The notes beneath the pieces are model-generated. The model had not been told where the DNA came from. It ran no database searches and saw only the letters and a list, made by a program, of their open reading frames with translations. A program made the translations under genes and the position numbers. A DNA stretch of 64,000 bases from Halorubrum trapanicum (lineage in GTDB: Archaea > Halobacteriota > Halobacteria > Halobacteriales > Haloferacaceae), in contig NZ_AP017569.1 in the NCBI RefSeq assembly GCF_002355655.1, positions 1,736,001-1,800,000 of the forward strand, in the 5' to 3' direction. Each line of letters begins with the position of its first letter. Position 1 is the stretch's first letter. This document shows positions 2,136 through 49,167 of this stretch, in pieces.

Positions 2136-5087
2136 TCAGTCGTCGTCCGCCACCGCGGGCTTCCGGCGGTCGTCGCGGGGCCCTTCGAGGTCGACCTTCG
2201 GGAGCATATCTCGGAGGTAGCGCCCGGTGTGGGAGGCGTCCTCCCGGGCGATCTCCTCGGGGGTGCCGCTCGCGACGAGTTCGCCGCCGCCGTCGCCGCC
2301 CTCGGGGCCGAGGTCGATCACGCGGTCGGCGTTCTTCACGAGGTCGAGCTCGTGTTCGATGACGACCACGGTGTTGCCGGCGTCGACGAGCCGGTGGAGC
2401 ACGTCGATCAGCTTGCGCTCGTCCTCCTTGTGGAGCCCCGTCGTCGGCTCGTCGAGGAGATAGAGGGTGTCGCCGGTCGCGCGCTTGCCGAGCTCCTCGG
2501 CGAGCTTCACGCGCTGGGCCTCGCCGCCCGAGAGCGTCGTCGAGGGCTGGCCCAGCTCCATGTAACCGAGCCCCACGTCCTTCAGGAGCTTGAGGCGGCG
2601 CTCCAACCCGCGGTGGCTCTCGAAGAACTCGTGCGCCTCCGCGACGCTCATGTCGAGCACGTCGGCGATGGTCTTCCCCTTGTACTCCACGTCGAGCGTC
2701 TCGTCGTTGTAGCGGGCGCCGCCGCACTCCTCGCAGGGGACGTACACGTCCGAGAGGAAGTTCATCTCGATCTTGACGGTCCCCTGCCCGCCGCACTCCT
2801 CGCAGCGCCCGCCCTTCACGTTGAACGAGAAGCGGCCCTTCTCGTAGCCCCGACGCTTCGAGAGCTTCGTCTCCGCGAACAGCTCGCGGACGTGGTCGAA
2901 CACGTCCGTGTACGTGGCGGGGTTCGAGCGCGGCGTCCGCCCGATCGGCGACTGGTCGATGAGCCGGACCGTCTCCACCTCGTCGAGCCCCTCGATCGCG
3001 TCGTGCTCGCCGGGGTCGACGGAGGTGTTGTCGTTCATCTCGCGGGCGAGCCCCTTGTAGAGGATGTCGTTGACGAGCGTCGACTTCCCGGAGCCGGAGA
3101 CGCCGGTGACGGTCGTCAGCGTGCCGAGCGGGATCGGCACGTCGAGGTCCTTCAGGTTGTGCTGGCGGGCGCCGCGCACGACGAGCTCGCCGTTGGGCTC
3201 GCGGCGCTCCTCGGGCACCGGAATCGACTTCCGGCCCGCGAGGTAGTCGGCCGTCACCGACTCGTCGGTCGCGACCACCTCCTCGAAGTCGCCCTGCGCG
3301 ACGACCTCGCCGCCGCGCTTGCCGGGGCCGGGCCCCATGTCGATGATTTCGTCGGCGCGCCGCATCGTCTCCTCGTCGTGCTCGACGACGAGGAGGGTGT
3401 TACCGAGGTCGCGGAGCCCCTCCAGCGTGTCGAGCAGGCGGTCGTTGTCGCGCTGGTGGAGCCCGATGGAGGGCTCGTCGAGGACGTACAGCACGCCCAC
3501 CAGCCCGGAGCCGACCTGCGTCGCGAGCCGGATGCGTTGGCTCTCGCCGCCCGACAGCGTCGAGGCCTCGCGGTCGAGCGTGAGGTACTCTAAACCGACC
3601 TCCTCCATGAACCCGAGCCGCGCGCGGATCTCCTTTAAGATCTCCTCGGCGATCGTCGTCTCGCGCTCGTTCAGCTCGTCCTCCAGCCCCTCGAAGTGCT
3701 CGCGCGCCTCGGCGATCGACAGCTCGTTCACCTCGGTGATCGCGGTGTCCGCGACGAGGACGTGCCGCGACTGCTCCTTCAGGCGCGTCCCCTCGCACTC
3801 GGGACAGGTCGTCACGGCCATGTACTCCTCGATGTGGTCGCGGGCGCGCTCGGAGTCGGTCTCGACGTGGCGCCGCTCCAGGTTGGGAATCACGCCCTCG
3901 AACCGCTCCGTCTTCTCGCGGGTGCCGTTCTTCGTGGTCCACTCGAAGTGGACGACGTCGTCGGTGCCGTAGAGGAACTGCCGCTGAATCTCCTCGTCGA
4001 GCTCCTCGAAGGGCGCGTCGAGGTCGACGCCGAAGTGCTCCGCGACGTTGTCGAGCTGCCTGGAGTAGTAGGTGCGGTCGTAGCTCCACGGCTCGAACAC
4101 GTGCTTCAGCGGCTTCGAGGGGTCCTCGATCACGAGGTCCTCGTCGACCTCCTTCGTCGAGCCGATCCCCTCGCACTCGGGGCAGGCGCCGTACGGGCTG
4201 TTGAAGGAGAACGAGCGCGTCTCGATCTCGGAGAACTGGACGTCGGAGTTGGGGTTGCCGAGCTCCTCGGAGAACTCCACGACGAGGCGGTCGTCGCCGT
4301 CGGCGTCGGCCGCGAGCGACCCCGTCGAGCGCGCGTTCGACGCGAACGGGACGTCTTCGGGCGGGTCGGGGACGATCAGCTTGAGGGCGCCGTCGGCCTC
4401 CTCCAGCGCGGTCTCGACGGAGTCGGTGATCCGCGAGCGCGCGTCCGGCGAGACGGTCACGCGGTCGACGATCACGTCGATCGTGTGGTCGTAGTTCTCG
4501 TCGAGGTCGGGGGAATCGAGGGTGAGATCGACCGGCTCGCCGTCGACCTCGACGCGGCTGTACCCGTCCGAGACCAGCTCCTCGAACAGCTCCTCGAAGG
4601 CGCCCTTCTGATCGCGGACGACGGGCGCCGCGACCTTCGCGCGGGTGTCCTCGGGGAGGTCGAGGATCTGGTTCACCATGTCCTGTGCGGACTGCTCGCC
4701 GACCTCCTCGCCGGTGACGGGGTCGTACTGGGTGCCGATCCGGGCGTACAGCAGGCGGAGGTAGTCGTGGAGCTCCGTGACGGTCCCCACGGTGGAGCGG
4801 GGGTTGTTCGCGGCGTTCTTCTGGTCGATGGAGATCGCCGGCGAGAGCCCCTCGACCGACTCCACCTGCGGCTTGTCCATCTGCCCGAGGAAGTTGCGGG
4901 CGTACGCGGACAGCGACTCGATGTAGCGGCGCTGCCCCTCGGCGTAGACGGTGTCGAACGCGAGCGACGACTTCCCCGAGCCGGAGAGCCCGGTGACGAC
5001 GGTGAACTCCTCCCGCGGGATCCGGACGTCGAGGTCCTTGAGGTTGTGTTCCTCGGCGCCGCGGACCTCGATGTACTCCTTGCTCAT
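2136..5087 (-). CDS. uvrA: UvrABC excinuclease subunit A
   Basis: This 983-residue protein is full-length UvrA, the damage-recognition ATPase of nucleotide excision repair. It has two ABC ATPase halves: Walker [10 protein letters not shown] near residue 33 and GVSGSGKST in the C-terminal half, with LSGGE signatures in both. Zinc-finger cysteines are present as CPECEG pairs in the N-terminal half and CEECGG pairs in the C-terminal half. The start [16 protein letters not shown] is the family start. The C-terminus carries a short halophile-type acidic tail. uvrB lies about 33 kb away on the other strand; uvrC is not in the window. Confidence 0.98.
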
Positions 5088-21778: not shown

Positions 21779-23506
21779 CTACACCGCCTCCGGTCCGGTC
21801 GCGCCCGTGCGGACCTGGAGCGCGTCCTCGACGGGCATGATGAACACCTTGCCGTCGCCGGGCTCGCCGGTCTCGGCGGCGTCGGCGATCGCCTCCGCGA
21901 CCTCGTCGGCCGGGATGTCGGCGACGACGACGTCGACCTTCACCTTCTGGTGGAGGTCGACGGTGAACTCCTCGCCGCGCCACTGGCCCTTCTTCGCGGG
22001 CTGGCTGCCGCGGCCGGAGACGTTCGTCACCGTCAGCGAGGGCGCGTTGATCTCCGCGAGCGACTGCTTGATCGCCCCGAGCTTGTCGGGGCGGACCACC
22101 GCGGTGACCATCTTGATCTGCGTGCCCGCCTCCGCGCCGCCGTCGGCGCGGGGGGACTCGCTGTCGGACTCGGTCGTGTCGACCACCGACGGACCGCCGT
22201 CGGTCGCGACGCGGTCGCCGCCGAACTCGGGGTAGGTCTCGACGCCGTGTTCGGAGATGTCGAGGCCCTCCTGCTCGTGTTCCGCGGTGACGCGCGCCTC
22301 GCCGCTCACCTTGAGGACGTACCAGACGGCGGCGGTCGCGGTGAGCGTCCAGCCGCCGATGATGACGACGCCGGTCAGCTGGGCGACGAAGTGGGCACCG
22401 ATGCCCGCGCTGAGCTCGCCCGGCGCGGCGACGAAGGGGAAGAGGAGCGTGCCGAGGACGCCGGCGCTCCCGTGGACCGGGAACACCGCGCAGACGTCGT
22501 CGATCTTGAGCGTGTCCGAGACGAACTCGAAGACGAGCGGGAGCTGTCCGCCGGCGAGGAGGCCGACGACCAGCGCGCCCCACCACGCCGTGGTGTCGGG
22601 AATGGCGGTGATGCCGACGAGCCCCGCGAGCAGCCCGTTTGCGACGTAGAGCGTGTCGACCTTCCCGGTGCGGAGCCACACGACGGTCGCGGCGCCGATC
22701 CCGCCGGCCGCCATCGCGATCGTCGTCCCCATCGCGACGAGGTTGAGCGTCAGCGTGTTGAACACGCCGCCGCTGACGACGGAGGCCGTGCCGACGTTGA
22801 AGCCGTACCAGCCGAACGCGAGGACGAGCGTCCCCAGCACGGCGAACGTCAGCGAGTGGCCGGGGATGACGTTCGTCGAGCCGTCCTCCGCGTAGCGGTC
22901 CATCCGCGGGCCGAGGACCGCGGCGGCCGTGAGGCCAGCGATCCCGCCCATGCCGTGGACGATCATGCCGCCCGCGAAGTCGTGGAACGCGGTTCCGGTC
23001 AGCTGCGCGACGAGCCCGTCGCCCGAGGCCGACCAGGTGAACGCGATGACCATCGGGTAGATCACCGCGGCGAGGAGGAACGTGTACGTGACGTACGCGC
23101 GGAGCTTCGCGCGACCGGCGACCGCGCCGGAGACGATCGTCGCGGCGGTCATCGCGAACACCGCGCCGTAGAGCCAGTTGACGTACGGGCCGATGACGCC
23201 CTCCTCGACGGCCAGTTCACCGCCGGAGAACAGCGAGCCCGCCGCGGAGGCGATCCCCGGCGACCCGTTCACGAGGCTCGTGAACGCCGTGCCGATCAGG
23301 AAGAACACCGTCACGCCGACGCTCCACGTCAGGAGGTTCTTCGTCAGCTGGTTGGCGACGTTCTTCGACCGCACCTGCCCGGCCTCGAGCATCGCGAAGC
23401 CGGCGTGCATGAAGAAGATGAGGAACGTCACGACGAGGATCCACGTCCCGTTCATCGCGGACGCGAACGTGCTCGGATCGATCGTGGCGAGAACGTTCGC
23501 CGTCAC
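21779..23506 (-). CDS. amtB: Ammonium transporter fused to a C-terminal PII domain
   Basis: Residues 1-430 are an Amt/MEP/Rh ammonium channel with about 11 membrane helices ([19 protein letters not shown] and the FHDFAGG and VHGSAGVLG motifs with the pore histidines). After a linker rich in Asp/Ser, residues 465-575 form a complete PII (GlnB/GlnK-like) domain. It starts [13 protein letters not shown], has a T-loop region around RGEEF and ends [16 protein letters not shown]. Haloarchaea usually encode Amt and GlnK as neighbouring genes; here both are one chain. The tyrosine used for uridylylation in enterobacterial PII is Phe. The fused PII presumably gates its own channel in response to 2-oxoglutarate and nucleotides. 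Confidence 0.95.
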
Positions 23507-24003
23507 GACTCAACCACCTCTACTGAACGACTGTCCGGTTCACGCTTCGTTTCGCTCGTGTTCATGTGCTGAATCACGTTTCGACTCCCGGGAACGGCTA
23601 CACATAAACGTTAGAGTTGAGTTTCACAAAAAAGAGGGTTGATAATACGGCGGTCGTCCGATATAAGGAGATGTCTATGGAATATAAGGGCGTTTCCTCG
23701 GTGATTTCGCGGCAATCGTTGCGCTCGAAGCGGACGGACGTTGTGTAATATTTCTATCTATTCCGCCCCGATCCGCCGTCGAGGGCCGCTCTGTGCCCGT
23801 ACGCGGCCGGTTCTGGCGAGTATTGCCACGCCGCTGTCTCGCGATTCGCCGTCGTACGGGCCCTCATCCGCGAATTCGAACGGCTAGAGGCCTCTCAATG
23901 AAAATTGACGTTCGTCAACCGGATCTCGAATTCGACGGCCGATTCGACCGATCGGTGGCGGTTCGACGTGATCGCCGAGCGGCTGACAGCGTCGAAACCT
24001 CGC
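23507..24003. other. AT-richer intergenic region upstream of amtB
   Basis: No gene could be supported. It holds the likely amtB promoter (minus-strand CGTTTATGTG near 23605, giving a leader of about 75 nt) and a plus-strand TATA-like CCGATATAAGG at 23660. It also holds a palindrome TTGACG-tt-CGTCAA at 23905-23918 that may be an operator. A 25-codon ATG frame at 23671 was considered too weak to call. Confidence 0.4.
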
Positions 24004-25035
24004 TTACTCCGGCTTCAGTCCCTCGTTCTGGACGCGCATCACGGCCTCGCCGTCGGCCAGGTTCGGCGCGTCGACGAGGCGGACGATCCGCTTGTCGCCC
24101 TTCGACTTCCGGAGGTAGATCCGGAAGGTGGAGGCGTGGCCGAGGATGTTGCCGCCGATCGCCTGGGTCGGGTCGCCGAAGTAGGAGTCCGGGTTCGACG
24201 CGACCTGGTTGGTGACGAGGATGGCGGTGTTGTACAGGTCGCCGAGCCGCATCAGGTCGTGGAGGTGTTTGTTGAGCTTCTGCTGCCGCTCGGCGAGCTC
24301 GCCCCGACCGACGTACTCCGCGCGGAAGTGCGCGGTGAGCGAGTCGACGCAGACGATCCGGATCGGCCACTCCGTCTCCTCGTGTTCGCCCGCCAGCTCC
24401 TTCGCCTTCTCGGCGAGGAGGATCTGGTGGTTGGAGTTGAACGCCTTCGCGACGTGGATCTGGTCTAAGAACGCGTCGACCAGGTCCTCCAGCGCCTCCT
24501 CGTCGCTCGGGGTGCCCTCAATCTCGCGGCGCTCCATCTCGTCGGCGAGGATCTCGTCGTCGAGCCCGCGGACCATGTCGTCGATCCGCTCCGGCCGAAA
24601 CGTGTCCTCGGAGTCGACGAAGATGCAGCCGCCCTCAAGCCCGCCGTTCTCCTTCGAGAGCTGGACGTTGACGGCCATCTGGTGGGTGACCTGCGACTTC
24701 CCGGAGCCGAACTCGCCGTACACTTCCGTGATCGACTGGGTCTCGATGCCGCCGCCGAGCAGGTCGTCGACCTCGTCGATCTGCCAGGAGAGCTTGCCGA
24801 TCTCCTGGCGGCGTTCGAGTACGGTCGCGCCCGTCTCGAAGCCGCCGACGTCGGCGGCCTCGCGGGCGGCGTTGATGATGTCGCTGGCGGACGACTCGCC
24901 GATGTCGGCGGTGTTGGACATCTCGCCGGGGCTCGCGACCGCGATCGACTGGTAGCTCTCGAATCCGTTGTCAACGAGCTTGTCCGCGGTCGCCGGGCCG
25001 ACGCCGGGGAGGTCCTCGAGTTCGTCTTCAGGCAT
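24004..25035 (-). CDS. radA: DNA repair and recombination protein RadA
   Basis: This protein of about 343 residues is the archaeal RecA/Rad51 recombinase. An N-terminal helix-hairpin-helix region ([17 protein letters not shown]) precedes the ATPase core with Walker [10 protein letters not shown] near residue 108 and Walker [11 protein letters not shown]. The L2 loop and the ATNQV-type sensor are visible (LVTNQV). The ATG at 25033-25035 is preferred over the GTG two codons upstream because a TATA box lies 26 nt before it. It acts in homologous recombination. Confidence 0.97.
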
Positions 25036-32123: not shown

Positions 32124-32147
32124 CGGCGAAGTCGGCCGCTTGCTCTG

Positions 32148-32180
32148 TTGAATATCATTTTTAAATATATTTTGTTCGTA
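32148..32180 (+). terminator. T-rich terminator of orc
   Basis: The sequence after the orc stop contains ATTTTTAAATATATTTTG, far more T-rich than its surroundings and typical of archaeal T-tract termination. Confidence 0.5.
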
Positions 32181-32234
32181 ACCGCCGGTCACTGAAGAGT
32201 GCTTCTCGATCGGTAGCGGAAGTACGTGTATCGA

Positions 32235-32640
32235 TACAGTTGGTCAGTCGTTTATAAATCGGATCACGGTGTCGGTATCGGTTGTTTATAAGCGTAGGGC
32301 GGTGCTACGGTGGACACTCTCAAAGCCCCAGCCGTAAGGACGGCGCACGCTCGCTGCGCTCCTCAGTCGCTCGCGATGCTCGCTCCCTGCGGTGCTTGCG
32401 TCGCCTGCGCCGTCCTCACGACTGCCCCTTTGAGTCCCACCCAGCCGCAACCGCACAGCACCTCACGCCTCCCCAACCTCGTCAGTCGCCTCCGCTTCGC
32501 TCCGGCGACTGACTCCCTCGCGGGCTGGCTCGCGGCCGCCGGTGGCGGCCGCTCGCAGGCGCGCCACCGCATCGCGGTGTTCTTTTATAAGCGATCGTCG
32601 CCATCGCTCATCGCCTTTTAAATATGCTCCTGCTACCGCC
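32235..32640 (-). repeat. Interspersed structured repeat, copy D
   Basis: Copy D of the five-copy family, core 32317-32571. P1 spans 18 positions (AGCCGTAAGGACGGCGCA with the arm ending at 32422). Its two mismatches are C-A on the plus strand but become G-U pairs in a minus-strand RNA. P2 is a perfect 10-bp stem (32481-32490 with 32504-32513). P3 is identical to copy A (32532-32552). The TTATAA unit beside P1 is 3 bp closer than in the other copies. It lies between orc and rpiA. Confidence 0.85.
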
Positions 32641-32788
32641 GATCTGCGATACTCACTCCCGAAATCGCTCGTCGCTACGTCTGTACTGAGCGATTGAACA
32701 CATAAAGTATCAACCGCTAACGATTTCAACAGGACCGACCGCTTTCAGCCCCGACGCCTTTTCAACGCCCCCGAACGCAGTCGACGCC

Positions 32789-41195: not shown

Positions 41196-41652
41196 GCGCC
41201 GGCGGCCCTGATTGCCGGCCCCGCTCGCTCGCCGCCGATCAGCTTCCCGGCCGCTCGCTCGCGGCTGGCTCTGAGTTCGCGCTTCTCGCCGAACCGCTCG
41301 TCGGAGCCCTCGCAATCGGACCAGCGCGGGGGTTCGACGCCGCCAGTTGGGTGCTGTCGCGATCGCCCGTCTCCGGAGATCACCGCGCAGTCCCCGTCTC
41401 GGCACCGCCCGTTCGCGGATCGGGGGACCGACCTCGATCTCCCGTTATGAAAGTTAGATTGTTATATTACAACTCTGTTGGTAATACTTATCCCAGTGGA
41501 GTCTGTGTGGTCCGATACGGTTCACACGGCTACACACACGGTACGCTGTGAGACCGTCTCCCGAGCGACACGACTGCGGTCGGACCCACCGGACTGACGA
41601 CAGACAGTGGCAGCGGCAATTCAACGCGATCGGTCACGTTCGAGACGGCCAA
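41196..41652. other. Intergenic region with the nrd promoter
   Basis: The first 240 bp are GC-rich with no convincing gene. From 41445 the DNA becomes AT-rich. It carries a near-palindrome at 41465-41486 and a TATA-like AATACTTATCC at 41484-41492, which would give a leader of about 135 nt before nrdB, long for a haloarchaeon. Confidence 0.5.
41465..41486 (+). promoter_or_regulatory. Palindromic operator candidate before nrdBA
   Basis: TATTACAAC-tct-GTTGGTAATA is a 9-10 bp inverted repeat with one bulged base, overlapping the TATA-like box. Its position fits a repressor site for the ribonucleotide reductase operon. It does not match the bacterial NrdR box in an obvious way. Confidence 0.5.
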
Positions 41653-42693
41653 ATGAGTGAAAGCGAAAACGCGAACACCAACGCGAACACCGACGCGAGT
41701 ACAGACACAGAGAGAGAGACGGACATCTTCTCGGAGCGAACACAGCTGAAGCCCTACGAGTACGGCGAGTTCCTCGACTACGTCGAGGCGATCCGGAACA
41801 GCTACTGGGTGCACACGGAGTTCAACTTCGACGGGGACGTCCAGGATTTCAAGGTCAACACGACGCCCGCCGAGCAGACGGTTATCAAGCGGACGATGTT
41901 GGCTATCGCGCAGATCGAGGTGCAGGTGAAGACGTTCTGGTCGGACATCTACGAGGAGATGCCCAAAGCCGAGGTCGGGAACGTGGGCATGACCTTCGCG
42001 GAAAGCGAGGTGCGGCACATGGACGCGTACAGTCACCTACTGGACGTCTTAGGGATCACGGACGACTTCGAGCAGGTGACCGAGGAGCCGGCGATCAAAG
42101 AGCGGATCGAGTACCTCGACCAGTATCTGGAGAAGAGCGAGAGCGACGACGAGCGGGAGTACGTGATGAGCATCCTGCTGTTCAGCGCGTTCGTCGAGCA
42201 CGTGTCGCTGTTCAGCCAGTTTCTCATCATGACGAGCTTCGACAAGCACGAAAAGAAGTTCACGGGGATAGCGAACGCCGTCGAAGCGACCAGCAAGGAG
42301 GAGCAGATTCACGGGCTGTTCGGGGTCGAGCTGGTGGAGACGATCAGAGCGGAGAACCCGGACCTCTTCGACGACGACTTCGAGGAGGACGTCCAGGAGG
42401 CCTGTCGGCAGGCCTACGAGGCGGAGACGGAGATTCTGGACTGGATATTCGCCGACGGCGAACTGGAGTTCCTCCCCCGGGCGCACGTCGACGTGTTCCT
42501 GCGAGACCGGTTCAATCAGAGCCTCGCAAACGTCGGCGTGGAACCGATATTCGAGACGGACGACGACCTGCTCGAGGAGACGCGCTGGTTCGACGAGGAC
42601 ATCATGATGACGAAGGATAACGACTTCTTCAGCAAGCGGTCGACCACGTACAACAAACACACGCAGAGCGTTACCGCGGAGGACATGTTCTAA
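41653..42693 (+). CDS. nrdB: Class I ribonucleotide reductase, beta subunit
   Basis: This 346-residue radical-generating subunit has the di-metal ligands in order: E89, E119, H122, E182, E217 and H220. The radical tyrosine is Y126, four residues after the histidine as in E. coli Y122. The first ligand is Glu rather than the more usual Asp. The C-terminal tail (SVTAEDMF) should dock on NrdA. The ATG at 41653 is followed by a Thr/Asn-rich acidic tail. Serine AGC and arginine AGA/AGG codons are common here but rare in neighbouring genes, which suggests transfer, perhaps from a virus or plasmid. Confidence 0.95.
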   Translation: MSESENANTNANTDASTDTERETDIFSERTQLKPYEYGEFLDYVEAIRNSYWVHTEFNFDGDVQDFKVNTTPAEQTVIKRTMLAIAQIEVQVKTFWSDIYEEMPKAEVGNVGMTFAESEVRHMDAYSHLLDVLGITDDFEQVTEEPAIKERIEYLDQYLEKSESDDEREYVMSILLFSAFVEHVSLFSQFLIMTSFDKHEKKFTGIANAVEATSKEEQIHGLFGVELVETIRAENPDLFDDDFEEDVQEACRQAYEAETEILDWIFADGELEFLPRAHVDVFLRDRFNQSLANVGVEPIFETDDDLLEETRWFDEDIMMTKDNDFFSKRSTTYNKHTQSVTAEDMF

Positions 42694-42695
42694 CG

Positions 42696-44384
42696 ATGGC
42701 ACAAACAGCACTCGACGGCGTTGCGGAACAGCATAATGAACCGTTTTACTGGCTGAACGAGGACAGCAGGGAGTTCCTCAGAGAGGGATACCTGATCGAG
42801 GGTGTCGAAGCGGAAGAGCGAGTCAGACAGATAGCGGAGCGCGCCGAAGAGATCCTCGGCGAGGAGGGCTTCGCGGACAGGTTCTACGAGTACATGAGCC
42901 GCGGCTTCTACAGCCTCGCCAGCCCGGTGTGGGCCAACTTCGGACTGGACAGAGGCCTCCCTATCAGCTGTTTCGGCAGCTACATGGAGGACAACATCGA
43001 GAGTATCCTCTACACCCAAGCCGAGGTGGGTGAGATGACCAAGCAGGGCGGCGGCACGAGCGGGTACTTCGGCGAGCTGCGGCCGCGGGGCAGTCAGATA
43101 ACGAACAACGGCAAGAGCAACGGGAGTTACAGCTTCACGGAGCTGTTCGACACGATCATTAACGTCATCAGCCAGGGCGAAACCCGGCGCGGGCAGTTCG
43201 CCGGCTACATCGACGTCGAACACGACGACCTGGAGGAGTGGCTCAACATCAAAACCGAGGGGGACCCGGTACAGGACATCTACTACGGCGTCATCGTCGG
43301 CGACGACTGGTTTCGGGCGATGATCGACGGCGACGAGGAGAAGCGGGAGACCTGGGCGGACATCATCGAGACCCGGATCAACGTCGGCGTTCCGTACATC
43401 ATCTTCCGGGGGAACATGAACGAGGGGAAGCCGCAGGTGTACAAGGACAAGGACTACCAGATAAACGCGTCCAACCTCTGTACCGAGATCGCGCTGCCGG
43501 CCACCGCCGACGAGAGCTTCGTCTGCTGTCTCTCGAGCATGAACGCGCTCCACTACGACGAGTGGAAGGACACCGACGCGGTGGAGACGCTGACCCGGTT
43601 CCTCGACGCGGTGATGGAGGAGTTCATCCAGCGCACGGAGGGAGTCCGGTTCATGGAGCGGGCCGTGCGGTTCGCGAAGCGACACAGGGCGATCGGGATC
43701 GGCGTCCTCGGGTGGCACAGCTACCTCCAGAGTAACATGATCCCCTTCGACAGCATGGAGGCGATGGAGAAGAACGAGGAGATATTCCGGACGATCAGAG
43801 AGCGGAGCTACGAGGCGAGCGAGGCGCTCGCCGACGAGTTCGGGGAGCCGGCGGTTCTCGAGGGGTACGGCAGGCGGAACACGACGACGATGAGCGTGGC
43901 GCCGACGAAATCGAGCAGCGTCATTCTGGGGCAGGTCAGTCCGAGCATCGAGCCGCTGAAGTCGAACTACTTCGTGCGCGACGGTGCGAAGCTGAAGTCG
44001 ACGCAGAAGAACAGATTCCTACAGGCGCTGCTGGCGGAGCGGGGTAAAGACACCCGCGAGGTCTGGGACAGCATCGCGAATAAGGACGGGAGCGTCCAAC
44101 ACCTCGACTGTCTGACGGACAAAGAGAAGGAGGTGTTCAAGACGTTCGCCGAGATACCGCAGATGGCGATCATCAACCAGGCGGCACAGCGACAGAAACA
44201 CATCGACCAGGCACAGAGCGTGAACGTCTCCATCGACCCGAGCGAAGTGAGCGTCAAGGAGATCAATCAGCTCTACATAGAAGCCTGGAAGAAAGGAGTC
44301 AAGAGCCTCTACTACCAGCACAGCGTGAACGCCGCACAGAAATTCAGTCGAGATATTCTCGAGTGTCGGGCCTGTGAGAGCTGA
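42696..44384 (+). CDS. nrdA: Class I ribonucleotide reductase, alpha subunit (short, no ATP cone)
   Basis: This 562-residue catalytic subunit begins 3 bp after the nrdB stop codon starts its gap, so the two form an operon. The active site is complete: C92 and C277/C278 as the redox pair, the N260-x-C262-x-E264 radical centre, a YY pair in VKSLYYQHS and a C-terminal CxxC (557-560). It lacks the N-terminal ATP cone and is about 200 residues shorter than E. coli NrdA, so the usual dATP feedback is probably absent. Codon use is as atypical as in nrdB. Most haloarchaea rely on class II NrdJ. Confidence 0.95.
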   Translation: MAQTALDGVAEQHNEPFYWLNEDSREFLREGYLIEGVEAEERVRQIAERAEEILGEEGFADRFYEYMSRGFYSLASPVWANFGLDRGLPISCFGSYMEDNIESILYTQAEVGEMTKQGGGTSGYFGELRPRGSQITNNGKSNGSYSFTELFDTIINVISQGETRRGQFAGYIDVEHDDLEEWLNIKTEGDPVQDIYYGVIVGDDWFRAMIDGDEEKRETWADIIETRINVGVPYIIFRGNMNEGKPQVYKDKDYQINASNLCTEIALPATADESFVCCLSSMNALHYDEWKDTDAVETLTRFLDAVMEEFIQRTEGVRFMERAVRFAKRHRAIGIGVLGWHSYLQSNMIPFDSMEAMEKNEEIFRTIRERSYEASEALADEFGEPAVLEGYGRRNTTTMSVAPTKSSSVILGQVSPSIEPLKSNYFVRDGAKLKSTQKNRFLQALLAERGKDTREVWDSIANKDGSVQHLDCLTDKEKEVFKTFAEIPQMAIINQAAQRQKHIDQAQSVNVSIDPSEVSVKEINQLYIEAWKKGVKSLYYQHSVNAAQKFSRDILECRACES

Positions 44385-44404
44385 CCGCTAACCCGTAGTC
44401 GGGC

Positions 44405-45634
44405 TCACGTCCCCGGCCGCTCGCTTTCGCTCTCTAGCTCGATGTCGCGGTCGGCCTCGCGGGTCGCCGCCTCCTGCTTGCCGAGGTCGACGTCGCGGGC
44501 CGTGTCCGCGTCCCGCGTCTCGTCGGTCCGGAGGTCGCTGTCGGCCACGGTGTCGAGCTGTTCGAGCGCGCTCTCGATGTCCTCCAAGCCGAGCAGCTTC
44601 TCCGTCTCCTCGTCGAACTCCTTGCTATCCAGTCCTTCCATCTGCTGGACGTCGGAGCCGGAGAGCGCCTTCCCGTAGCGGCCGATGAGGCTGGTGAGCT
44701 CCTGCGGGAGGACGAACGTCGTCGACTCGCCTTTGCCGATCTCTTCTAAGGTCTCCATGCCGCGCTCGATGATGGCGCGCTCGCCCATCGACTCGGCGGA
44801 CCGTGCCCGCAGCACGGTCGAAATCGCGTCCCCCTGCGCTTCGAGGATCTGGCTCTGCTTTTCCCCCTGTGCGCGGATGATGTTGGACTGCTTGTCACCC
44901 TCGGCCTGCTCGACGGCGGAGCGGCGTTCCCCCTGCGCTTCGAGGATCATCGCGCGGCGGCGGCGCTCCGCGCCGGTCTGCTGCTCCATCGCGCGCTGGA
45001 CCTCCTGTGAGGGGCTCACCTCGCGGACCTCGACGGCCTCGACGCGGATCCCCCACTCGTCGGTGGGCTCGTCGAGCTCCTCGTTGATCCGGTCGTTGAT
45101 CAGCTCCCGCTGGGAGAGCGTGTCGTCGAGCTCCATGTCGCCGATGACGGCGCGGAGGGTCGTCTGCGCGAGGTTGGAGACGGCGTTCTTGTAGTCGTCG
45201 ACCTCTAGGAACGCCTTCTTGGCGTCCATCACCTTGATGTAGACGACCGCGTCGGCCGTCACGGGAGAGTTGTCCCGCGTGATCGCCGACTGGCTCGGCA
45301 CGTCGATCGTCTGCGTCCGCATGTCGAACGCGTACGTCCGCGAGACGAACGGCGGGATGACGTGGACGCCCGGTTCGAGCAGCTTCCGGTACTCCCCGAA
45401 GACGGTGAGCGCCTCCTTGTCGTAGGCGTCGACGATCTCCACGGCGCTGACGACCGTGACGGCCGCCAAAAGCACCGCGAGCGCCGCGACGCCGAAGACG
45501 AGGCTCTGTCCGAGGAGGGCGACGCCGACGAGGAGGGCGACGCCGAGCGCGAGGTACTGCCAGACCCCGTCCGGGATCTCTCCCAGCACCTCCTCCAGCT
45601 CGGCGGACTCGCCGCGCGGACCTTGTGTTCCCAT
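44405..45634 (-). CDS. SPFH/stomatin-like membrane protein
   Basis: This 409-residue protein has two adjacent hydrophobic stretches near the N-terminus (about 25-66). These are followed by an SPFH (band 7) domain (VHVIPPFVSRTYAFDMRTQTIDVPSQSAITRDN...) and a coiled coil rich in EAQGERRSAVEQAEGDKQ-type sequence. The C-terminal 100 residues are acidic and low in complexity. Stomatin-like proteins form oligomers on membranes and often work with proteases. No NfeD partner is adjacent. Confidence 0.92.
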   Translation of the reverse strand: MGTQGPRGESAELEEVLGEIPDGVWQYLALGVALLVGVALLGQSLVFGVAALAVLLAAVTVVSAVEIVDAYDKEALTVFGEYRKLLEPGVHVIPPFVSRTYAFDMRTQTIDVPSQSAITRDNSPVTADAVVYIKVMDAKKAFLEVDDYKNAVSNLAQTTLRAVIGDMELDDTLSQRELINDRINEELDEPTDEWGIRVEAVEVREVSPSQEVQRAMEQQTGAERRRRAMILEAQGERRSAVEQAEGDKQSNIIRAQGEKQSQILEAQGDAISTVLRARSAESMGERAIIERGMETLEEIGKGESTTFVLPQELTSLIGRYGKALSGSDVQQMEGLDSKEFDEETEKLLGLEDIESALEQLDTVADSDLRTDETRDADTARDVDLGKQEAATREADRDIELESESERPGT

Positions 45635-47100: not shown

Positions 47101-47284
47101 CCGCGACCCGCTCGTTTCCGACGGTTTGGATATGCGATTCGAGCGACTGCGATATGTAGAAGTTGGTACTTAATCTCCATTCCGGCCAGCGACAACGTTA
47201 GGGTGGGTCGATAGTTCGACCTATTGGGGTTCGTTCCGATACTGTATTCTGTCATCCTGACTGTCTAACGACCGGTCGTCGACC

Positions 47285-47497
47285 TCAGGCGTCTAACTGG
47301 CCCGTGCATTCGTCACAAACGTACTGTAGTCGCCAGTCTTCTACGCTATCGACATCCAGCCCGATCTGCGTGTAGTGGAAGGGAGATTTGTGGGTCTCGT
47401 GGCCGCACAAGGGGTCTTCGGTCGCGTCTGGAATGTGTAATATGTCGTCCTCACCTCGGATCCAGTGTTCTTTGTCACCTGGTGGTGCTGGATGCAT
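47285..47497 (-). CDS. Cys-rich microprotein
   Basis: This 70-residue acidic protein has three cysteines and several histidines (LCGHETHKSPFHY and YVCDECTGQL), enough for one zinc site. It starts at ATG 47495-47497, directly after the TAG of the frame above it (TAGATG), with GGGAGGT about 10 nt upstream as a ribosome site. It lies in the AT-richer islet and is AT-richer than core genes. No family was recognised. Confidence 0.6.
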   Translation of the reverse strand: MHPAPPGDKEHWIRGEDDILHIPDATEDPLCGHETHKSPFHYTQIGLDVDSVEDWRLQYVCDECTGQLDA

Positions 47498-47743
47498 CTA
47501 CATTACCTCCCTGGGACAATCGGGGTTGCCACATTGAACGCCGCCGCTCGAATCGGCTGGGGAAAACTCGGCTGCGGTGGCGTTGATACCGTCCATCTCG
47601 GAGTTTCCTGGCCTCTGGGTCGTGATTCGCCCGATGGAATGGTTCCGGTGCTTCCGACTGAGACTCGCCTCGCTGACAATTCGGGCTTCTGAGACCCGCA
47701 GTTCTGAGATCCTTCCCTTCTTGCAGACTGGTATACATTGCAT
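47498..47743 (-). CDS. Possible small protein upstream of the Cys-rich microprotein
   Basis: This 81-residue frame starts MQCIPVCKKG and ends VQCGNPDCPREVM, with cysteine pairs at both ends that could bind zinc. It is followed immediately by the next ATG (TAGATG), suggesting coupling. A competing frame from the ATG at 47754-47756 has a better-looking N-terminus, so a frameshifted or mis-assigned gene is possible. A TATA-like CCCTATATAGGG lies about 30-40 nt upstream of both. Confidence 0.35.
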   Translation of the reverse strand: MQCIPVCKKGRISELRVSEARIVSEASLSRKHRNHSIGRITTQRPGNSEMDGINATAAEFSPADSSGGVQCGNPDCPREVM

Positions 47744-47775
47744 CGTGAAGATCCATCTTTAACCGTGTCTCGCTG

Positions 47776-47787
47776 CCCTATATAGGG
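47776..47787 (-). promoter_or_regulatory. TATA box of the microprotein pair
   Basis: CCCTATATAGGG is a perfect 12-bp palindrome containing TATATA, about 20-30 nt before the candidate starts at 47756 and 47743. Confidence 0.5.
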
Positions 47788-47945
47788 GGCGAAGACTGGT
47801 GACTTTTCTGAGGAACGGTTATCGATTAAATTGCTTGCGTACTCCCTTGGCCAGTGTCACATCAAGCCGGTTACGACACAGGGGATAGTAGGTCTCAGCG
47901 TTCGAGTTTGAGCGGTCTTTGGTTTGGAGCGATTGAGTTGGTCTG

Positions 47946-48191
47946 TCACTCGAAGGATTGGAGCGGGGTTTCTTCGGCCATCGTTTTGTAGATCTTTCCG
48001 TTGGAGTCTATCCACCCCAATTGTTCTTCTTTGAACATCGATCTGTAGATCGCCCCGTTGGAGTCTATCCACCCCAGTTGCTCTTCTTCGGCCATCGTCT
48101 TGTAGATCGCCCCGTTGGAGTCTATCCACCCCAGTTGCTCTTCTTCGGCCATCGTCTTGTAGATCGCCCCGTTGGAGTCTATCCATGCCAT
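47946..48191 (-). CDS. Small protein of 19-residue tandem repeats
   Basis: This 81-residue protein consists of four copies of a 19-residue unit, WIDSNGAIYKTMAEEEQLG, the last one incomplete. At DNA level the repeats are 57 bp long (48001, 48058, 48115 and 48172). The two units nearest the start are identical, and the others differ by substitutions that spare the DSNG-IYK core. It starts MAWIDSNG. No known fold was recognised; the repeat could form a small beta-solenoid or a set of short hairpins. A longer overlapping frame (47857-48558) is judged a shadow. Confidence 0.7.
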   Translation of the reverse strand: MAWIDSNGAIYKTMAEEEQLGWIDSNGAIYKTMAEEEQLGWIDSNGAIYRSMFKEEQLGWIDSNGKIYKTMAEETPLQSFE

Positions 48192-48402
48192 GTGACGTGT
48201 CGTCCTTTTGCGGGGGAAAGGATATTCTTATGGTTCGATAGCCGTATGTTGGTTTGACCCTTCCTAGTCTGCAATATCCTCGTGGCGAACCCTCAAGAAC
48301 GATTCTCATCGCATTCGGAGAATGTAAGCGGACGATGACGTGTCGACGGCCGACGAAATCGTCTGACGCAGTCTTTTTGACTGGCGTCCCGTGTTTCTCG
48401 GT

Positions 48403-48546
48403 ATGTACAATATGCCCGGACAGAGCTGTGCCTGTGGTGAGGATCAGCGTAACATGGCTCAGTACTGCAGCGATTGTGGAACCCAGAAACGGTGGATCGA
48501 TTGGGGGCACCACAGCCAAGTCTTCGAGTGTCCGGACTGTCAGTGA
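48403..48546 (+). CDS. Zinc-finger microprotein
   Basis: This 47-residue protein starts MYNMPGQSCACGEDQ. Six cysteines are arranged CAC, CSDC and CPDC, ending the protein at CPDCQ. The layout (CxC, CxxC, CxxC with a WGHH segment) suggests one or two zinc sites. The ATG at 48403 or 48412 can be used; a T-rich TCTTTTTGA box lies about 30 nt upstream. It is the third Cys-rich microprotein in 2 kb. Confidence 0.65.
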   Translation: MYNMPGQSCACGEDQRNMAQYCSDCGTQKRWIDWGHHSQVFECPDCQ

Positions 48547-48782
48547 GAGTTCCTCCACTCTTGAGAGGATGACACCGACCGACCTCGCTGAGATTGGGTG
48601 ACAATCCCGCCACGCTATTTACCCGGGGAGAGACCGGTTTACAGACCGACCGAATCAGGTACACTAAAATCTCAGGCTCTTGCCTAATTTGGTGAAACAA
48701 CTGTCTGAAGTGTGATATGGGAATGTGCGGAGTGATGAATATAGAGAATGTAGTCATCAATCTCTGTTAGCAGTACAGCTGA

Positions 48783-49004
48783 TTAGCAGCAGTTGCTTTC
48801 ATCGGGGTTCCACGCACATGCATTTCCCGTCGTCAGGCCATTTTCATCGATATATGCCGCCAGACACGCGTAGTTACAGAAGTACTGGGGGGACCCGCAG
48901 TTGTCGTCACAATCACGGACACAGATTGGATCGTGGTCGAAAATTTGGGAGTCACAGTACGCGCGAGGTTCGTTCGCATTCGGGGTCGCCACAGTCGTGG
49001 ACAT
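48783..49004 (-). CDS. Cys-rich protein with TRASH-like motif
   Basis: The product is 73 residues from the ATG at 49002-49004 (MSTTVATPNANEPRAY), or 90 from an earlier ATG. Nine cysteines are grouped as CVRDCDDNC, YFCNYACLAAYI and a CC end. The FC-x3-C-x2-AYI part resembles TRASH/MYM-like metal-binding hairpins (FCsxxC...F). It is probably metal-binding; the function is unknown. It belongs to the AT-richer islet of small proteins. Confidence 0.65.
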   Translation of the reverse strand: MSTTVATPNANEPRAYCDSQIFDHDPICVRDCDDNCGSPQYFCNYACLAAYIDENGLTTGNACAWNPDESNCC

Positions 49005-49167
49005 AGCTGACCTAGGAGTAGCGTCGCGGAAAACGTTTCGTGAGATACGCTTCATCTTGAGACCGATACGCGCTCTACGTTCAACACGCCTTTATGAACA
49101 TATCACCAGTTGAGGATTCCAACAGAGCCAACCGGTGTTTCTCCCGTCGAGCTATCGTCCTCCCGAC

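Follow-up and report, generated by a model that had tools for sequence, protein, structure and literature searches.

Closest described systems

Mobile insertion cassettes consist of IS ends placed around non-transposase genes that are moved in trans and leave a target duplication. One such element, MIC231, is cited in PMC6542083. In haloarchaea, MITEs such as the Haloquadratum HqIRS elements are transposase-free and have ends like those of an autonomous transposon (PMC3119063), while the homeocassettes of Halorubrum ezzemoulense form alternative islands flanked by identical core genes (PMC11078007). The islet described here occupies positions 47101-49140 of a 64,000-nucleotide stretch of the Halorubrum trapanicum genome (the window), between metY and an M29 aminopeptidase gene. 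Together with its relatives it resembles all of these systems. Elements of its family are like the MIC231 type in that IS ends flank non-transposase genes and a target duplication is found; the islet itself has cargo but no transposase, one surviving arm and a putative left copy of the duplication. The outer 16 bp and the 8-bp duplication of the family are shared with the IS5-family elements ISHla2 and ISHxa2. Based on the surviving right arm, the insertion site shared with relatives, the dispersed elements with duplications and a transposase with the same ends, we conclude with a probability of roughly 0.85 that the islet is a mobile insertion cassette, an old, non-autonomous and decayed transposable element with ISHla2-like ends. 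The literature searched, which covered the IS literature in part, contained no description of these cassettes.

The islet is AT-rich and carries small cysteine-rich ORFs

The GC content of the islet is 52.7% compared with ~70% for the window, placing it among the lowest 2-kb stretches and bearing out the lower GC noted in the original prediction. Only 0.09% of 2040-bp segments across the 64 kb are as low in GC (0.527), the minimum of the sliding segments begins at 47115, and the true extent of the islet is ~47120-49137. Further GC dips (~0.59-0.62) are seen at 41500-44500 and 23000-24500. All previously proposed ORFs are present in the ORF listing, and the features of the islet are as follows.

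47120-47127, plus strand: left flank GACGGTTT, a candidate for the left copy of an 8-bp target duplication
47128-49129: AT-richer body of the presumed decayed cargo element; gap empty in 8 relatives, other cargo in 7
47285-47497, minus strand: cargo ORF of 70 aa with a CGH...CxxC pattern; its start adjoins the stop of the next ORF
47498-47743, minus strand: cargo ORF of 81 aa with C-x3-C and C-x4-C
47946-48191, minus strand: repeat-protein cargo ORF of 81 aa with four near-identical 19-20-aa repeats (GWIDSNGAIYKTMAEEEQL)
48403-48546, plus strand: cargo ORF of 47 aa with CxC and two CxxC in a zinc-ribbon pattern
48689-48760, plus strand: possible internal arm remnant, weakly matched at E 0.017 in the interval set
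48783-49004, minus strand: cargo ORF of 73 aa from a Cys-rich haloarchaeal family; an upstream ATG would give 90 aa
49062-49129, minus strand: right arm, type B, with outer end GGCTCTGTTGGAATCCTC (E 1.7e-16 for the arm profile against the whole window)
49130-49137, plus strand: right flank AACCGGTG, where the right copy of the duplication has decayed or gone missing

Small cysteine-rich ORFs are in excess over shuffled sequence. Four ATG ORFs of 40-120 aa with at least two C-x(2-4)-C motifs are observed against 0.2 expected from 500 dinucleotide shuffles, none of which reached the observed count. One of the four, an 88-aa ORF on the plus strand, overlaps the 47-aa ORF and probably does not represent a gene. 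Cysteine pairs are present in the other proteins for which zinc-site cysteines had been suggested, the description being weakest for the 70-aa ORF with its three cysteines.

The 70-aa ORF and the 81-aa ORF at 47498-47743 probably form an operon. A TATATA box is located at ~47779-47786 upstream of the 81-aa ORF and a GGAGG motif lies ~10 nt upstream of the 70-aa ORF start, and these TATA-like and Shine-Dalgarno-like elements favour predicted expression of the pair. The 70-aa ORF has no homologs among 194 other Halobacteriales genomes and the 81-aa ORF a single weak one (E 3e-4). The repeat-protein gene is built from 3.8 copies of a 57-bp tandem unit with 90% match and is without homologs among 391 other genomes; its structure model is all-beta at low confidence (pLDDT 49), and its Pfam RepA_N and Ntox37 matches were distrusted as short and repeat-driven. 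The 47-aa ORF shows weak DZR/HVO_2753 similarity (E 0.007-0.02) and has one homolog (53%). The 73-aa family, by comparison, is present in 233 of 392 Halobacteriales genomes and 62 of 95 genera. Cysteines at positions 17, 28, 32, 36, 43, 47, 63, 72 and 73 are invariant among 16 aligned members, with the window copy lacking the near-conserved cysteine at 14, the first of a CxxC. No Pfam, NCBIfam or PDB match was obtained for this family and its structure model is uninformative (pLDDT 47); in our own reading its CxxC...FCNxxC pattern resembles TRASH/YHS zinc fingers. Judged from homology searches, the four remaining ORFs are nearly unique to this genome, and they were not found in any intact cassette elsewhere. 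Overall, the cargo products are probably small, putative zinc-binding accessory proteins.

ORF listing and profile search agree with the earlier statement that no transposase or integrase lies inside 47101-49140; with no DDE transposase between its ends, the islet is not an autonomous IS5 element. An integrated virus or plasmid remnant would also present low GC and small Cys-rich ORFs, and we consider it highly improbable. The islet contains neither the integrase nor the structural genes of a provirus, the Cys-rich proteins have no significant PHROG match, the tested proteins are unmatched in phage records and viral contigs, and the right edge is formed by a transposon arm. PHROG matches of the repeat protein are short and repeat-driven.

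The metY-M29 junction is empty in some relatives and filled in others

The M29 gene was found in all 52 genus genomes (52/52), and 40 of its neighbourhoods plus two further ones were compared. Where metY and M29 are arranged as in the window, eight genomes have an empty gap (31-86 bp) and seven others, not counting the window, a filled one (~0.57-2.3 kb). Scanning named records a second time led to the same picture of empty and filled junctions. The filled gaps have a GC content of 0.47-0.59 and carry unrelated genes, encoding a response-regulator histidine kinase, a DUF7344 protein with a membrane protein, an amidohydrolase, a lipoprotein or a membrane protein. Halorubrum sp. Atlit-26R and H. 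distributum each contain a 571-bp filling with identical arm positions. None of the five ORFs of the window has a homolog in the other metY-site islets; conservation of the same genes in all relatives, named in the original prediction as contrary evidence, did not occur. The noted absence of metX from this junction is real yet uninformative, because in relatives, too, M29 and a band-7 gene immediately flank metY and leave no space for metX.

A defence or regulatory locus retained for its function would fit the wide conservation of the 73-aa family, and one-domain zinc-finger micro-proteins matter in Haloferax volcanii (PMC6562870). Such a locus is nevertheless improbable, given that it is not conserved at the metY site, that four of its five ORFs are so narrowly distributed and that PADLOC returned no match, with nothing below E 0.008. 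Among the origins first offered for the islet, cargo stands and its vehicle can be named; the viral and defence origins are not supported.

The window element retains a single arm

All filled gaps have the left flank and right end in common. At the other filled sites, GACGGGTT/GACGGTT precedes the left arm and GAC[GA]GTC[TC] follows the right arm. Both arms are present in five relatives at the same site while the window keeps the right arm only; its left arm is undetectable by profile search, as are those of two other filled sites (L036 and L040), and the GG following the left flank may be the last trace of this end. The putative left copy of the target duplication is kept and the right copy is different; duplications of relatives at the metY site are imperfect while those of elements elsewhere are exact. 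With its left arm undetectable and its right copy different, the window by itself is no proof of transposition. The lack of an internal transposase and the single surviving arm also explain why no mobile element had been seen here before. In one filled site (L037), the left and right ends form a 60-bp inverted repeat with 78% identity, the right arm is of type A and an additional internal arm is present. The arm-like stretch at 48689-48760 of the window, which was not listed at E 0.05 when the whole window was searched, weakly suggests that the 73-aa gene possibly arrived as its own nested cassette at 48.69-49.13 kb.

Related arms bound dispersed elements in Halobacteria

The right end is a dispersed repeat found in 51 of 52 genus genomes and in 31 of 78 genera of the order. 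Arms fall into types A and B, A' and B', and paired arms starting with GGCTCTGTTGAAATCC bound elements of 0.3-3.7 kb that carry varied genes and mostly no transposase. Facing end pairs with an 8-bp target duplication (at most one mismatch) number 29 of 98 compared with 0.2 expected per control shift, some of these pairs being nested or overlapping so that they do not equal 29 independent elements. The duplicated target sites at other locations have no strongly preferred sequence. Element cargo includes a globin, a periplasmic binding protein, a uracil-DNA-glycosylase-superfamily protein, an SBF transporter and a histidine kinase. At two filled metY sites, the cargo has counterparts in duplication-flanked elements elsewhere (L037/L159, 83.5%; L036/L147, 45%).

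The window holds a second element of the same family.

32142-32735: element bounded by arms A' and B', with near-identical 8-bp duplication copies GGCCGCTT/GACCGCTT and no clear cargo gene

It is located between genes identified by eye as orc1/cdc6-like and ribose-5-phosphate-isomerase-like.

Several individual loci were also recorded. A cassette with an exact duplication (L134, 2083-3430) contains two genes, one winged-helix-like and the other PIN-like by eye (no Pfam match), which may form a toxin-antitoxin pair. A 73-aa homolog lies beside a type A arm together with a histidine kinase gene in L237, where a target duplication is absent. In a different genus (L241, ~2955-4834), an amidohydrolase 44% related to the metY-site cargo of L039 adjoins the gene most closely related (85%) to the 73-aa gene of the window. 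Ends doubled in tandem ~90 bp apart occur beside N in the sequence of L133, L182 and L185 and are perhaps an assembly artefact.

An IS5-family transposase carries the same ends

In more than 20 copies, the cassette end is found exactly 52 bp before the ATG of an IS5-family transposase of 273 aa (NF033579, E 2.4e-62). In seven transposase copies the 8-bp duplications are exact and the right end lies 305-780 bp past the gene; the right ends largely correspond to the cassette arm types. Relatives of the transposase are annotated as ISHla2 or ISHxa2 in plasmid records. The host genome itself encodes an intact ISHla2-like transposase (G000:C3:71813-72631) with a right end 1126 bp downstream.

Other candidate parents were rejected. 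The cassette end looked IS6-like, but the best IS6 copies end differently (TAGTGTTCAGATAAGCTG), and the ends in L124 point away from the IS6-gene region. IS1595 is represented by one copy (L122) that has no matching duplication.

One old insertion or many

Filled and empty sites are intermixed on the tree, requiring at least four changes, and the insertion point is identical to the base wherever it is readable. Arm variants, selected after inspection of the alignment, separate the metY site from other locations: A-arm variants occur in 5 of 5 arms at the site and in 0 of 32 elsewhere, B-arm variants in 7 of 7 compared with 2 of 57, leaving out L037 with its type A right arm. By nearest neighbour, A arms have a mean identity of 0.77-0.81 within the metY site and 0.65-0.72 outside, while B arms show no clear grouping by site in overall nearest-neighbour comparison. 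The common site and the rarity of these arm variants elsewhere favour, at the level of sequence comparison, one old insertion with repeated cargo turnover.

Independent cassettes may instead have entered the same hotspot in each species, with no swapping of cargo inside one old element. Patchy occupancy, cargo unrelated between species and B arms that are often nearest to arms at other sites speak for this minority possibility. A hotspot does not readily account for an insertion point that is the same to the base when duplications elsewhere lack a strong sequence preference, nor for the scarcity of the metY-site arm variants at other locations. Plain homologous recombination through conserved flanks with the arms as passengers, the process by which mutually exclusive islands are explained in Halorubrum ezzemoulense (PMC11078007), could likewise exchange whole islands. 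We regard it as unlikely, since the cargos of different species have no common homeoalleles and two of them recur inside transposed elements at unrelated sites. This recurrence, combined with the internal arm of L037, supports nested insertion as one route of cargo entry into a single old element. The metY site, where related species keep the insertion point and similar ends around entirely different genes, resembles a fixed socket that has repeatedly exchanged its contents.

Proposed mechanism and comparison with known systems

In the proposed mechanism, two differing arms of ~65 bp would have their outer 16 bp (GGCTCTGTTGAAATCC) recognised by an ISHla2/ISHxa2-type IS5 transposase encoded at another place in the genome, which would act in trans and produce 8-bp target duplications. 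One ancestral insertion beside metY would have been followed by cargo replacement, either through nested insertion and deletion or through recombination, and the left arm of the window element would have been lost. On a broader scale, Halobacteria might possess a class-wide cassette system with two standard arms, one IS5-type transposase and a large, interchangeable pool of accessory genes, in which old insertions serve as cargo-exchanging sockets while the arms stay; we put this forward tentatively. Small accessory 'orphan' genes of haloarchaeal genomes, otherwise without a visible mobile element, find a concrete vehicle in the cassettes, and because the arms are directly searchable such genes could be re-annotated as cassette cargo. 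The metY site provides a natural series for the study of cargo turnover.

The system differs from the MIC231 type in its two distinct long arms common to a class of archaea, in its many cargos including one site with species-specific cargo, and in that movement in trans is inferred here. Compared with ISHla2 and ISHxa2, the islet has no internal transposase; autonomous copies of these elements also carry 0.3-1.1 kb beyond the transposase and have variable right arms. HqIRS MITEs are mostly non-coding and smaller than 0.5 kb (PMC3119063), in contrast to the mostly larger, gene-carrying cassettes described here. The metY-site islets are smaller than homeocassettes (PMC11078007), bounded by transposon arms and without shared homeoalleles, so that the window islet falls short of the homeocassette pattern in which half or more of an island's genes are homeoalleles of its alternative. 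If the class-wide system were true, it would be functionally reminiscent of integron cassettes, with a DDE transposase as its basis instead. The islet is explained by a mobile family of known kind, and it is the turnover of cargo at a fixed site that is unusual.
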